32,441 nucleotides of DNA, from the NCBI GenBank assembly GCA_031264185.1, contig JAISEL010000007.1, forward strand, positions 1 to 32,441. The letters are read 5' to 3'. The position numbers and the translations under genes were made by a program. Shown piece by piece: positions 18,840 to 25,052 of the stretch. The DNA is from Deltaproteobacteria bacterium. Lineage in GTDB: Bacteria > Desulfobacterota > Desulfarculia > Adiutricales > Adiutricaceae. Position 1 is the first letter of the stretch. Each line of letters opens with the position of its first letter. Below the pieces are notes generated by a model. The model was not told where the DNA came from and ran no database searches. It saw nothing but the letters and a program-made list of their open reading frames with translations.

Positions 18840-19859
18840 ATGAGTGAAAATCTTGGCATAACCATTTCCAATCATTTCCTTTTAAACCAGCAGCTTTCCC
18901 CCGGAGCTACCGGTTCTTTCACCAGACTTCTCCAGTCTCTGGTTTTAGCCTGCAAAATTATCCAGAAAGATGTAGGCAAGGCCGGTTTAGTGGATGTCCT
19001 GGGCCGGGCCGGCACCGTCAATATCCAAGGGGAGGAAGTTCAAAAGCTTGATGAACTGGCCAATCTGACCATCAAAAGACGTCTTTCCGTGTCCGGAGAG
19101 GTCTGCGCTCTGGTTTCCGAGGAAGAAGCCGATATAATTGAGATTCCCCGCCAGTACCCCAGAGGCAACTATATTGTCCACTACGATCCTCTGGACGGCA
19201 GCTCCAATATTGACGCCAATGTCTCCATCGGCACCATCTTCTCCATATACCGCCGCATTACCCCTTCCGGCTCGGACACTAACGATAAAGACGCTCTCCA
19301 GCCGGGTCTGAAGCAGGTTGCGGCCGGTTACATCATCTACGGCTCATCCTGCATTCTGGTGTTTTCAACCGGCCAGGGAGTCAACGGCTTTACCTTAGAT
19401 CCGTCCATCGGGGAGTTTCTGCTGTCTCACCCCAATATCCGGACCCCCAGACGGGGAAAGATCTACTCCGTTAACGAAGGCAATTACGGCTACTGGGACG
19501 ACTGCACAAAAAGGTATATTGAGTGGCTCAAGCACGGCTACTCCGAACACCAGACCCATTACTCCAGCCGCTACATCGGCTCTTTAGTGGCCGACTTCCA
19601 CCGCAACATGCTCTACGGAGGCATATTCCTGTATCCGGCTGACCTGAAAGATCCCCTGAAACCACAAGGCAAACTGCGCCTGATGTGCGAGGCCAATCCT
19701 TTAGCTTATCTGATTGAGCAGGCCGGAGGTATGGCCACTACCGGCCAGAACCGAATCCTGGAAATTGAACCCAATTATATCCATCAGCGCGTACCCCTGA
19801 TAATAGGCTCCCCGGACGATGTGGCCATTTATCAGGATTTTATTAACGGCCGCCGCTGA
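18840..19859 (+). CDS. fbp: Fructose-1,6-bisphosphatase, class I
   Basis: 339 residues, full length for the class. Gluconeogenic hydrolysis of fructose-1,6-bisphosphate to fructose-6-phosphate in the cytoplasm. Motifs: LVSEEE (91-96) and the metal site DPLDGSSNID (116-125), followed by the substrate-site blocks YSVNEGNYGYWDD, HYSSRYIGSLVADFHRNMLY with arginine and tyrosine contacts, and GKLRLMCEANPLAYLIEQAGG with the catalytic glutamate. GGGAGGT is well placed before the ATG. It fits an organism that builds hexoses from C3/C4 acids, in line with the malate module. Confidence 0.96.
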   Translation: MSENLGITISNHFLLNQQLSPGATGSFTRLLQSLVLACKIIQKDVGKAGLVDVLGRAGTVNIQGEEVQKLDELANLTIKRRLSVSGEVCALVSEEEADIIEIPRQYPRGNYIVHYDPLDGSSNIDANVSIGTIFSIYRRITPSGSDTNDKDALQPGLKQVAAGYIIYGSSCILVFSTGQGVNGFTLDPSIGEFLLSHPNIRTPRRGKIYSVNEGNYGYWDDCTKRYIEWLKHGYSEHQTHYSSRYIGSLVADFHRNMLYGGIFLYPADLKDPLKPQGKLRLMCEANPLAYLIEQAGGMATTGQNRILEIEPNYIHQRVPLIIGSPDDVAIYQDFINGRR

Positions 19860-21001: not shown

Positions 21002-21928
21002 TTACGGACAGGCCTGACCCAGAGGATCAAAGGCTTCGGGATTTTTAATCACTTCCAGGTAATGGGCCAGTTCTTTGGGAAAACCCTGTCTGCTTGTTTT
21101 TTCCAGAAGAGCAAAAACCCGAGTGACGGCCTCCCTGTGACCGACAGCGGCCCAGAGATAAAAAGCCCGGTCCAGACTCTGGGCGCCTTCGCGGATTTGG
21201 CCGTGAGCTAACTGCAGTTCAGCCTGTAGCTCCAGATCCTGAGCTAAACCGACCGGGTTTTCCGTTTCCCGGTCTAAATTTAAAGCCTCGTTCAAGTAAG
21301 TTTCGGCCAGTTGGCTGTCGCCCCTGTCCAAGGCCACCTGAGCGCCCAGCGCCAGAGCATCGGCCCGGGCGGCGGCGGCCGTGCCTTTTGTTTGGGAGGC
21401 CGTTAAGCATTGGTCGGCCCGGACTAAATACTCAGCCTCCCGGCTCTGGGATTTATAAAGGCGGGCTAAATTGGCCAGATAAACCGTCTGCCGGTGCGGC
21501 GGGGCGCTGTTTAACGCCTCCTGCCAGAATTCTTCGGCGTCTTTCGGGCGTCCGGCTTCAAAGGCTAAAGAACCTAAATTGCCGTAAATACTGTCCAGTT
21601 CCGGATGCTCAGGCACGGACAAAGAAAGTTCCAGCGCCTCGGACAGTTTGACCGCCGCTTCGTTTAACCGGCCCTGGGCCAAAAAGGCGGCGCCCATAGA
21701 ATTATGGCTCATGACAATTAAAGGAACACTGTCGGCTAAACGGGCGTAAGCCAGACCTTCCCCAAAAAAACGGGACGCTTCCCGGTGGCACCCCCTTAAG
21801 TACCAGTGGTGGCCTTTGTTTAAATTGTCTTTGGCCTGAGCCAGATTAAAAGGATCCTGAGGGGGCACAGGACCGCAGGCCATGAGCCCGGCTAAGACTG
21901 AGACCGCCAAAAACCCGCCTCTGAACAT
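21002..21928 (-). CDS. TPR lipoprotein at the end of the Mla-like operon
   Basis: 308 residues. Signal sequence with lipobox GLMAC, Cys18 as the acylated residue. From about residue 30 on the protein is tetratricopeptide-like: NLNKGHHWYLRGCHREASRF, MSHNSMGAAFLAQGRLNEA, IYGNLGSLAFEAGRPKDAEE, and later QLAETYLNEALNLDRE. No enzymatic motif. Its start codon is immediately next to the stop of the MCE gene (21928/21929), so it is the last member of the operon. A periplasmic scaffold for the lipid-transport proteins is a reasonable guess. Confidence 0.8.
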   Translation of the reverse strand: MFRGGFLAVSVLAGLMACGPVPPQDPFNLAQAKDNLNKGHHWYLRGCHREASRFFGEGLAYARLADSVPLIVMSHNSMGAAFLAQGRLNEAAVKLSEALELSLSVPEHPELDSIYGNLGSLAFEAGRPKDAEEFWQEALNSAPPHRQTVYLANLARLYKSQSREAEYLVRADQCLTASQTKGTAAAARADALALGAQVALDRGDSQLAETYLNEALNLDRETENPVGLAQDLELQAELQLAHGQIREGAQSLDRAFYLWAAVGHREAVTRVFALLEKTSRQGFPKELAHYLEVIKNPEAFDPLGQACP

Positions 21929-22834
21929 TTATCTCTCCCGGACCGGCCGGGTCAGGCTCTCCGGCGGTTCATCGGGCCTTAAATTACCCCGGATAAGGAA
22001 GTTGCGTTTAATGGAATCCAGGATCTGATCCACTTCCCGGATGCCTTCTCTGGTGCCGCGGGCAACTTCCGGAAAAGAGCGGGTCCCCGACTCGACCTGC
22101 TTTAAGATGGCGTCTATTTTTAAGGTCAGAGCCGGGATATCTTTCTGAAGACCTGAGGCGGTTTTGGAAAGGGACTCGCTGACCGATCTCAGTTCCTTCA
22201 AAGTCTCCAAAAGCTGGTCGTAGAGATCGGTTCTGACGACCAGATTACCCAGCGAGCCTTCCCCGGCCGAAACAGTTCCGGTAATGCGTCTTAAGTTTTC
22301 CATGGTCCCTAGGATGGGACCGGAAGGATCCTGGAGCCGGTCAGACAGGCTGACTATATTTTTCATAATAACGTCAACCTGCTTGAGCTTCTGGTCCATT
22401 TCAAAAGAGGCTATGACATCTTCCACTGTCTTGGGATCTTTGGCCGGAATCTGGCCGCCAGGGGGAATCGGCAGACTTTCGGCGCTGCCGGGAATGATCT
22501 CCAGATACTCGCTGCCTATTATGGTGGGACTGTTGACGCTGGCTAAACTGTCGCCTTTTAACCGGGAGGCGTATTCGGTTAATATGGTCAAGTGGATCTT
22601 GACCATATTGGTGTCAGTCAGTTCCAAACTGGTGACCCGGCCGATATCCAGTCTTAAGAACTTAACTTTAACGCCCGGCAGAAGTCCGTAGCCGCCCTGG
22701 AAAAGCACAAAGTAATTCTGGTAACTGGAAAGCCAGTCCCGGCCGGCTCCAACCAGCACCATAGCTAAGGCAATTAGCCCAAAGCCCAAAAGCAGAATCA
22801 ATCCGGCTATTCTTTCGGTCCAGGTGTATTTCAT
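21929..22834 (-). CDS. mlaD: MlaD-like MCE domain protein
   Basis: 301 residues. One transmembrane helix at about 11-30, then an MCE domain (about 38-115: YFVLFQGGYGLLPGVKVKFL, RLDIGRVTSLEL, SPTIIGSEYLEIIPGS). The remainder is helical, with repeated hydrophobic spacing, ending in an arginine-rich tail. MCE proteins form hexameric rings that carry lipids through the periplasm. This one is MlaD-like (a single MCE domain, inner-membrane anchored), with a longer than usual helical extension that could form a needle as in PqiB or LetB-like proteins. It is preceded 26 bases upstream by the degenerate ATPase-position gene. Confidence 0.9.
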   Translation of the reverse strand: MKYTWTERIAGLILLLGFGLIALAMVLVGAGRDWLSSYQNYFVLFQGGYGLLPGVKVKFLRLDIGRVTSLELTDTNMVKIHLTILTEYASRLKGDSLASVNSPTIIGSEYLEIIPGSAESLPIPPGGQIPAKDPKTVEDVIASFEMDQKLKQVDVIMKNIVSLSDRLQDPSGPILGTMENLRRITGTVSAGEGSLGNLVVRTDLYDQLLETLKELRSVSESLSKTASGLQKDIPALTLKIDAILKQVESGTRSFPEVARGTREGIREVDQILDSIKRNFLIRGNLRPDEPPESLTRPVRER

Positions 22835-22860: not shown

Positions 22861-23511
22861 TTATGAAGTGATTAAAGCTAATTCTTGAGCGGCTAATTCT
22901 AAGGCCCAGGGCTCGGGGCTGTAATCAAAAATGACCAGGGCTAAACCGCCGCTCTTCAGTTCCGATAAAAGCTCCCAGGCTAAAGAAAAGTCAGCCTCAA
23001 ATAAAAATTTCGGCCGGTCCAGGAAAAAAAGCTTCGGCTCTCTGGCCAGAGCCTGAACTAAAAGAGCGATGGGCTGAAGAGCGGCCGGTATGTTTTCCCC
23101 CAAAATATGCGCCTTATCCGAAAGACCGGCCCTCTCCAGCCATTTAAGCCCCCTGGCCTCGGCCTCCCCGGTCGGCCAGCCCAAAGTATACTCAAAATAA
23201 AGAGTCAGATTATTAAGAAGCGTCCGGCTTGAAAGCAAGCGGCTGTTTTTGGCCACCCAGCCCAGGCGGCTTAAGAAAGCGGACTGCTCCCACTGAGCTG
23301 ACTCCGACGGCTTTGGTTCATTAAACCAAAATATCCGGCCGTCAGCAGGCTCGGCCAGGCCTAAAACCAGTTCCCACATGAGGCTGTATAAATTCGGATT
23401 ATCTATAACCCACAGGACAAACTGACCGGGTTTGACCGAAACATTGACCGGTTCCAGAAACTCGCCGCCCGGCCGGAGGTCATTAAGCCGGAAGACTGCA
23501 TCCTCAGTCAT
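22861..23511 (-). CDS. Degenerate ABC ATPase in the MlaF position (predicted inactive)
   Basis: 216 residues, close to the size of MlaF-type ATPases, and it aligns along its length with their fold: PVNVSVKPGQFVLWVI, then LVLGLAEPADGRIFWFNEP, LLSSRTLLNNLTLYF, LERAGL and PKLFFLDRP. Yet every nucleotide motif is altered. The Walker A position (35-45) reads VIDNPNLYSLM with no GxxGxGKS/T; the Q-loop Gln is Lys88; the signature LSGG position (about 140-147) reads NIPAALQP; Walker B keeps Asp165 but the catalytic Glu is Arg166; the switch His is Asp196. The frame is intact and overlaps the permease gene by 8 bases, so it is maintained, not decayed. It may be a structural subunit, or a partner of an ATPase encoded elsewhere. 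Confidence 0.72.
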   Translation of the reverse strand: MTEDAVFRLNDLRPGGEFLEPVNVSVKPGQFVLWVIDNPNLYSLMWELVLGLAEPADGRIFWFNEPKPSESAQWEQSAFLSRLGWVAKNSRLLSSRTLLNNLTLYFEYTLGWPTGEAEARGLKWLERAGLSDKAHILGENIPAALQPIALLVQALAREPKLFFLDRPKFLFEADFSLAWELLSELKSGGLALVIFDYSPEPWALELAAQELALITS

Positions 23512-24364
23512 AAAGGACAGTCACCAGAACCACGCCCAAGGTGCAGAAAATAAACGTTTCAGCCATGGCCCAGCGGGCACAGCGGGGAATTGCTCTTAAA
23601 TTGCCTTCCTTAATCCGCCAGCTGTGAAAAAGGCAAAAAAAGTTTAAGCAAAAGCCGACCAGTATAAATTTGGCCCCCATTTTAATAAAATTAAAATCCA
23701 CCAGAGCTGTTTTAGCTCCGGCCAGATAATCCCCCAGCGGCAGTTCAATGGAATCCCAGATACCTATGTAAAGGCCGGCTAAAGTGGAAACAGCCATGAC
23801 GGCAAACAAAACAGGAAAGCCAATTAAACCGGCCAGAAGGCGGGGCCAGGCCCAGAAATGTTCAGGCGGAATGCCCATGGATTTGAGGGTCATAAACTCA
23901 CCCTGACTTTTTCTTAAAGCCAGATCCACAGTCATGGGCACCCCGTGGCCCATGGTGACAACCGTGGAGGCTAAAATGGGGGCGACTTCCTGAAGCTGGA
24001 TGGAGAAGGCCAGGGAGATTAAACTCTCCGCCCCGGCAATATTGTCCAAAACCCCGAACCAGATAGCGTCCCACAGAAAACCGGCCATCAGGCCTGTTAG
24101 GATCATAATCCAGCCGGTTGTTGCAAATAGAAGCCAGACCTCTCTTAATAAAAGCCGGTTCATGATCCGGCGCCGGCCTTTTTGACGCTCAGAACCGAAG
24201 AGGCCCATCAAGAAAAGCCGGCCCCCAAAAGCCATTTGCTCATAGTGGCGCTTAAGCCAGACTAAGAGAAAACGGCCCAGAAAGCCGGCCAGATTAAAGA
24301 AGCGGAACCTTGGATCTACTGGGTCAGAGAGCCAGGGCCAATCTTTGGGTTTTTTGCTTTCCAA
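23504..24364 (-). CDS. mlaE: MlaE-like permease, divergent
   Basis: 286 residues, five to six membrane helices. The family layout is clear: an amphipathic N-terminal segment, WIMILTGLMAGFLW, then QLQEVAPILASTVVTMGHG, TLKSMGIPPEHFWAWPRLLA, and helices to the C-terminus. In usual MlaE proteins the cytoplasmic loop contains GR.G.AIAAELG..KV; here it is GHGVPMTVDLALRKSQGEFM, well away from the standard. This loop contacts the ATPase, so its change fits the loss of ATPase motifs in the next gene. The start is a TTG (24364), overlapping the upstream lipoprotein gene by 41 bases; a later start would cut into the amphipathic segment. Confidence 0.82.
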   Translation of the reverse strand: MESKKPKDWPWLSDPVDPRFRFFNLAGFLGRFLLVWLKRHYEQMAFGGRLFLMGLFGSERQKGRRRIMNRLLLREVWLLFATTGWIMILTGLMAGFLWDAIWFGVLDNIAGAESLISLAFSIQLQEVAPILASTVVTMGHGVPMTVDLALRKSQGEFMTLKSMGIPPEHFWAWPRLLAGLIGFPVLFAVMAVSTLAGLYIGIWDSIELPLGDYLAGAKTALVDFNFIKMGAKFILVGFCLNFFCLFHSWRIKEGNLRAIPRCARWAMAETFIFCTLGVVLVTVLYD

Positions 24365-25052
24365 TCTTAACTTTCAGGTTGAGCTTAACCGGACGGTCAG
24401 ATTCTCCGGGAAAGAACAGAAAACCCCGGACCGATTCTCCCGGGGCCACGCTGCTGGGTTTAATAGCCATGTCGGAAAAATCCCGGACAATAGCCCCGCT
24501 TTTGTCGTCATTCATCCCGATACCCAAAATAGCCGAGGAAGCTCCGATGGCCCCGCCCACAGCCGCCCCTTTACCGACGGCCGAACCGACATTTGTACCG
24601 GTGGCCACGCCCACAGCGGCTCCTAAAATTGCCCCTATCACAGCCCCTTTAACGGTCCGGCCGGCCCCCTCCTCAAAGGAACTGCCGCCGGTATGTCTGT
24701 CAATCCGGTCGAAAACTACATTCTGAGGCAGAAGCTCCCAGATCTGGCCCCGGGCGTCGGTCAGGGTAGAACCGGCGAGGATGGTCAAATCCACGTCGTC
24801 GTCATTCTGGATCAGAAGACGGACCGGCTGAACTCCTGCGGCTTTTAAATCAAATCCGAAAGTATCGGTCAGCTGGCGGCCGTCAGCCAAAGCCTCGGCG
24901 GCTATTGAGGCATAGCCGATCTCGGTCAGGTTGCGGTATGATTCAATGGCTCTCGTGGGCACGGCCCGGTACTCGTACTTGGGAGCGCAGGCCAGCAATA
25001 AAAAGCCCAGAACAAAAACCGGGCATATTTTTTTCCAAAAATTTAAAGGCAT
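24324..25052 (-). CDS. Lipoprotein with glycine-zipper segment, first gene of the Mla-like operon
   Basis: 242 residues. Signal sequence and lipobox LLLAC with Cys22. The middle (about 125-170) is a glycine-zipper: GAVIGAILGAAVGVATGTNV and GKGAAVGGAIGASSAILGIG, a pattern that packs tightly in membranes. Flanking regions look like beta-rich periplasmic domains (QPVRLLIQNDDDVDLTILAG; SVRGFLFFPGES with a VKLNLKVKIG end). No family assigned. Lying first in a run with MlaE, MlaD and TPR lipoprotein genes, it could be the outer-membrane contact of the system, in the role that MlaA plays elsewhere; this is an inference from position only. Confidence 0.72.
   Translation of the reverse strand: MPLNFWKKICPVFVLGFLLLACAPKYEYRAVPTRAIESYRNLTEIGYASIAAEALADGRQLTDTFGFDLKAAGVQPVRLLIQNDDDVDLTILAGSTLTDARGQIWELLPQNVVFDRIDRHTGGSSFEEGAGRTVKGAVIGAILGAAVGVATGTNVGSAVGKGAAVGGAIGASSAILGIGMNDDKSGAIVRDFSDMAIKPSSVAPGESVRGFLFFPGESDRPVKLNLKVKIGKQKTQRLALAL

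Follow-up and report, generated by a model that had tools for sequence, protein, structure and literature searches.

A conserved MlaF-position ABC protein without ATPase motifs in an MCE operon of Desulfobacterota

PqiAB and LetAB carry out MCE transport without an ABC ATPase, PqiA and LetA being unrelated permeases; the operon dealt with here is a different type of case, in which an MlaE-family permease retains its nucleotide-binding domain (NBD) and apparently not the chemistry of that domain. Among described systems, E. coli MlaFEDB (PDB 6XBD, 6XGY/6XGZ) has an MlaE permease, an NBD of the MlaF fold and the MCE-domain protein MlaD encoded together, with the coupling helix of MlaE contacting MlaF (PMC7790496). 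In the minimal transenvelope system of Veillonella parvula the core is MlaE, MlaF and MlaD only, MlaD is long and the operon contains neither MlaA nor MlaC; its mlaF is described as close to those of model diderms, the available part of that report contains no description of a dead MlaF, and its survey of 1083 genomes, in which MlaF was identified by profile and synteny, carries the remark that MlaF annotation is uncertain (PMC10665443). The mycobacterial Mce1 and Mce4 operons encode permease and MCE proteins and share an ATPase, MceG, encoded elsewhere, whose motifs are canonical and whose Walker B residues are needed (PMC9947336). Conserved non-canonical NBD motifs are a feature of heterodimeric ABC exporters with one degenerate site, e.g. 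TM287/288, which have one complete ATP site per dimer while the other site usually still binds ATP (PMC7756269).

The window (the whole stretch analysed, 32,441 nucleotides, contig JAISEL010000007.1 of GCA_031264185.1, a draft assembly of a Deltaproteobacteria bacterium in 166 contigs) contains on its minus strand an intact open reading frame of 216 codons with an ATG start, at 22861-23511. Its 216 amino acid product occupies the place of MlaF, and is here termed MlaF′, the prime marking the proteins of this operon and their orthologues. The former Walker A loop, residues 35-45 (23377-23409), reads VIDNPNLYSLM with no G-x4-GK[S/T], the residues aligned to GxxGxGK[S/T] being IDNPNLYSL. The LSGGQ signature is likewise absent, with NIPAALQP at residues 140-147 (IPAALQPI in the alignment), and the Q-loop Gln, catalytic Glu and H-loop His are replaced by Lys88, Arg166 (23014-23016) and Asp196, respectively. 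The frame shares 8 bases (23504-23511) with the 3′ end of the mlaE-like gene. All these residues, and an intact frame coupled to mlaE by the overlap, had been reported in the initial annotation, which named no strand, and all were found as described.

The transcription order, all on the minus strand, is Gly-zipper lipoprotein, MlaE′, MlaF′, MlaD′ and TPR lipoprotein. The permease MlaE′ (23504-24364, TTG start) matches Pfam MlaE (PF02405) with E 4.1e-21 and 76 bits, above the cut-off of 22.5, and MlaD′ (21929-22834) matches Pfam MlaD (PF02470) with E 2.3e-13 and 50.6 bits, above the cut-off of 25.1. MlaD′ has 301 amino acids, as against the 183 reported for E. coli MlaD (PMC10665443), and comprises a transmembrane helix, the MCE domain and a long C-terminus that appears helical in a model of low confidence (pLDDT 46, too poor to read). 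The TPR lipoprotein (21002-21928), with a signal sequence and a lipobox LMAC assigned by eye, is kept downstream of mlaD′, and the Gly-zipper lipoprotein (24324-25052), with lipobox LLAC also by eye, is conserved upstream of mlaE′ in families f1 and f3. Differences from MlaFEDB thus include, besides the loss of all ATPase motifs, the two extra lipoproteins and the apparent absence of MlaB and MlaC from the operon. The order from mlaE′ through mlaF′ and mlaD′ to the TPR gene is retained at most loci whose flanks were read. Two loci in f12 have a rearranged operon, with mlaD′ and the TPR gene on the strand opposite to mlaE′-mlaF′.

By sequence and predicted fold, MlaF′ is an ABC nucleotide-binding domain. 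Pfam ABC_tran (PF00005) matches with E 8.1e-5 and 23.7 bits, below its gathering cut-off of 25 bits, an FtsE model matches with E 2.6e-8, and a phmmer search of the PDB finds ArtP (1.6e-12) and LolD (3.1e-11). An AlphaFold2 model (pLDDT 86.4, pTM 0.82) has the ABC fold; its alignment included seven ABC proteins from viral contigs, the scans of which served only as a source of ABC sequences for fold prediction, so that the fold was guided by homologues. Foldseek places E. coli MlaF (6xgz) first for this model, with E 4.3e-15. A non-ABC identity, one of two outcomes on which the initial annotation had said its reading would fall, is ruled out by the PDB and Foldseek searches. Since the VIA-align Z scores of 21.9 to LolD and 21.1 to MlaF (6xbd) are tied within 1, the fold says ABC and does not alone single out MlaF; the NCBIfam MlaF model (NF008809) is not among the best 25 of the 31 families matched, and canonical copies from the same genome also fall below its cut-off of 441. 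It is operon position, between mlaE and mlaD, rather than fold that identifies the protein as MlaF. A single-sequence scan of genome contigs with MlaF′ gave one match, of 25% identity, in Endozoicomonas.

For conservation, MlaE′ orthologues were collected in the family of the window's genome and the MlaF′ frames were read directly after mlaE′. The P-loop lysine is missing from all 30 copies, which represent 11 genera, and the overlap with mlaE′ is exactly 8 bases at 23 of 26 loci. Local decay, for which the initial annotation had allowed and under which close relatives would have normal motifs, is ruled out along with sequencing error, as the same loss is present in the open frames of the whole set and none of the homologues is normal. 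That orthologues at the same operon position all through the family are without the same motifs makes the loss more than chance, and the proposal of a conserved, catalytically dead partner of an MCE transporter is supported to that extent, with catalytic death itself being probable from the motifs. In several genera, six copies have a long low-complexity N-terminal extension of about 40-100 amino acids that the window protein does not have.

Other residues are conserved across the family. Pro159 and Pro167 are invariant among the 30 copies, Tyr108 (23188-23190) is present in 29, Phe175 in 28 and Trp62 in 25, and the position of the catalytic Glu is Arg in 23 and Lys in 2, making W62, Y108, R166, P167 and F175 new family-wide positions. 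Such constraints are pertinent to a regulatory role, e.g. ligand sensing in an altered former nucleotide site, with MlaF′ gating the permease. A repurposed site is suggested by the basic residue at the catalytic position in 25 of 30 rows together with Asp (17) or Asn (5) at position 38 of the former P-loop in 22, and by one genus in which both positions are changed in three of four rows, though the latter is probably a single event. However, the residues vary by family, f22 having Thr38 and f12 lacking an acidic-Arg pair, so that they do not point to any one ligand site, and a regulatory function seems quite improbable.

The pace at which MlaF′ diverges raises a further question. Within a genus its identity is 34-47%, as against 58-60% for MlaE′, so that MlaF′ evolves faster. 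Pairwise dN/dS for the dead copies of closely related species, computed on stop-to-stop frames and hence liable to be inflated, is 0.18-0.38 in family f22 and 0.34 in f55, and mostly 0.2-0.4, with 0.46 for one f12 pair; the matching MlaE′ values are 0.06-0.22. Dead MlaF′ is therefore under continued purifying selection, less tightly than MlaE′. A slow decay, with the operon's function already lost and MlaF′ drifting, is in keeping with the fast divergence, with the occurrence of distant members without MlaF, and with one family genome in which the mlaE′ match has an internal stop and no MlaF′ was found after it. Set against this are intact frames and operon order in about 50 species, residues conserved throughout the family and dN/dS values well under 1, and decay of this sort is very unlikely. 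The genome with the internal stop is a small one in which the orphan ATPase discussed below is also missing, and its locus looks to be decaying.

What selection has kept may be a particular face of the domain. Tyr108 is found in nearly all MlaF copies of the wider clade described below, whether dead or Walker-bearing, while canonical rows have Glu or Gln, and it can be regarded as a clade marker. In the predicted model it is at the end of the helix that follows the former Q-loop. The helix region after the Q-loop in ABC transporters faces the coupling helix of the permease. Judged by this single marker and the predicted secondary structure, loss may have affected the nucleotide side and spared the one that faces the permease.

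The phenomenon extends well beyond the family. Searching 395 genomes of the phylum with an MlaE′ profile gave about 50 genomes with a match above about 154 bits, a soft limit as canonical MlaE copies start at about 152 bits, and flanking DNA was read at 40 of the best places. The Walker A lysine is absent from 51 of the 67 mlaE-adjacent MlaF copies of the clade, in twelve families; the other 16 keep it, all with an altered signature (LSLG, ISTG or LPxx for LSGG), and most of them have also lost the catalytic Glu. There is, then, a graded series in which the signature is altered in all clade members, the catalytic Glu is retained in few and Walker A is lost last. In a tree of 76 MlaE rows rooted on six canonical ones, all 70 clade rows group together (100/98), as does a 50-row subclade (100/98) that covers ten families and whose adjacent MlaF copies, where found, are all without the lysine. 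Parsimony on this tree requires at least 3 changes in the state of the lysine, and the rooting suggests that their direction was from presence to loss. Seven loci form a second sub-clade in which the lysine is kept and the catalytic Glu is Lys, Arg, Asn, Ser or Ala, and their MlaF proteins could possibly bind ATP and be unable to hydrolyse it. At four clade loci mlaE′ was not found to be followed by an MlaF frame; at two of these a fructose-bisphosphatase gene is present where MlaF is expected, and the window has a fructose-bisphosphatase gene too, at 18840-19859. The MlaE′ clade was not found among 299 genomes of a second phylum, that of an Endozoicomonas record, where only 2 matches reached 1e-44, both beside an intact MlaF, and a search of plasmids for MlaE′ gave no match.

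We favor, with moderate confidence, MlaF′ being a pseudo-ATPase that plays a structural part in an envelope complex of MlaE, MlaF′ and MlaD. It would neither bind nor hydrolyse ATP; most likely attached to the MlaE′ dimer from the cytoplasmic side, it would hold that dimer together through the coupling-helix interface and fix or gate its conformation. This would make the complex an MCE conduit for lipid, unpowered by its own MlaF, with lipid passing through MlaE′ and the MlaD′ ring down a gradient, or being drawn from the outer-membrane side, and with the TPR and Gly-zipper lipoproteins probably taking part. Whether the clade as a whole has repeatedly dropped ATP hydrolysis and kept the NBD as a scaffold, to yield a passive or externally driven lipid bridge, is about evenly balanced. 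Against a scaffold are the clade members without detectable MlaF after mlaE and the fast divergence of MlaF′, on account of which relaxed constraint could explain some of the pattern. Pertinent also is M. tuberculosis, where mutation of Walker B in MceG, the shared ATPase, destabilises both Mce1 and Mce4 (PMC9947336): MCE complexes do not in general tolerate a dead ATPase, and other changes would have been required to compensate for a dead MlaF′.

The main rival to the structural role is that an MlaF-like ATPase with its motifs, encoded as an orphan, powers MlaE′-MlaD′ in trans, as MceG does the mycobacterial Mce operons; MlaF′ would then be vestigial, or serve as an adaptor or alternative subunit. 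The window's genome has two further MlaE loci, each with an adjacent Walker-bearing MlaF gene, and, as the natural candidate, an orphan on contig C90 (L179:3423-4226) with Walker A GESSCGKST, LSGGMRKR and FDEP and no permease gene beside it in the stretch read. Its neighbors, conserved where they were read, were identified by eye as a CheZ-like gene and a phosphopantetheinyl transferase. It is kept in 26 of 37 family genomes at 49-64% identity, and the three family genomes without MlaE′ are also without it, an association that is weak and confounded by completeness and kinship. The orphan is, however, missing from three genera that have MlaF′, in assemblies 61-92% complete, its own H-loop His is replaced (LATADP or LATTDP), and family f2 has a gene resembling it (43%) without MlaE′. 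Beyond the order, genomes with dead MlaF′ gave only matches of the level expected of canonical MlaF (30-37%), and an orphan in trans is unsupported as a general answer.

The mycobacterial parallel is also incomplete in that here a dead NBD fills the operon position. Direct pairing with MlaF′ fares worse. The operon's single NBD gene has lost both Walker A and the signature, and because of this a heterodimer has no complete site, whichever partner is encoded elsewhere; in contrast to TM287/288 and its like, neither site can be complete. Of the roles raised in the initial annotation, passive lipid flow is compatible with the findings, and of pairing in trans what stands is a candidate ATPase in most family genomes, while a functional heterodimer of MlaF′ with an intact MlaF is judged unlikely on site geometry. 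Overall, powering in trans is to be regarded as unlikely, and a structural pseudo-ATPase is the likelier description of MlaF′.

The full-text literature searched, mostly outside of which are subscription papers and preprints, yielded no account of an MlaF that is conserved yet devoid of ATPase motifs, and the novelty is to that extent provisional. For Mla it is debated whether ATP powers the movement of lipid through MCE conduits or lipid follows a gradient, and which way it goes. With orthologous operons whose MlaF ranges naturally from Walker-bearing to fully dead, steps that need ATP could be told apart from those that need only the shape of an NBD. MlaF′ would, if confirmed, be the NBD of an ABC transporter that has lost every working site and is nevertheless retained by selection. 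For genome surveys, the presence of an mlaF gene is not equivalent to an energised transporter. For the organisms concerned, with the loss spanning dozens of species, the complex must either work without a motor of its own or borrow another.
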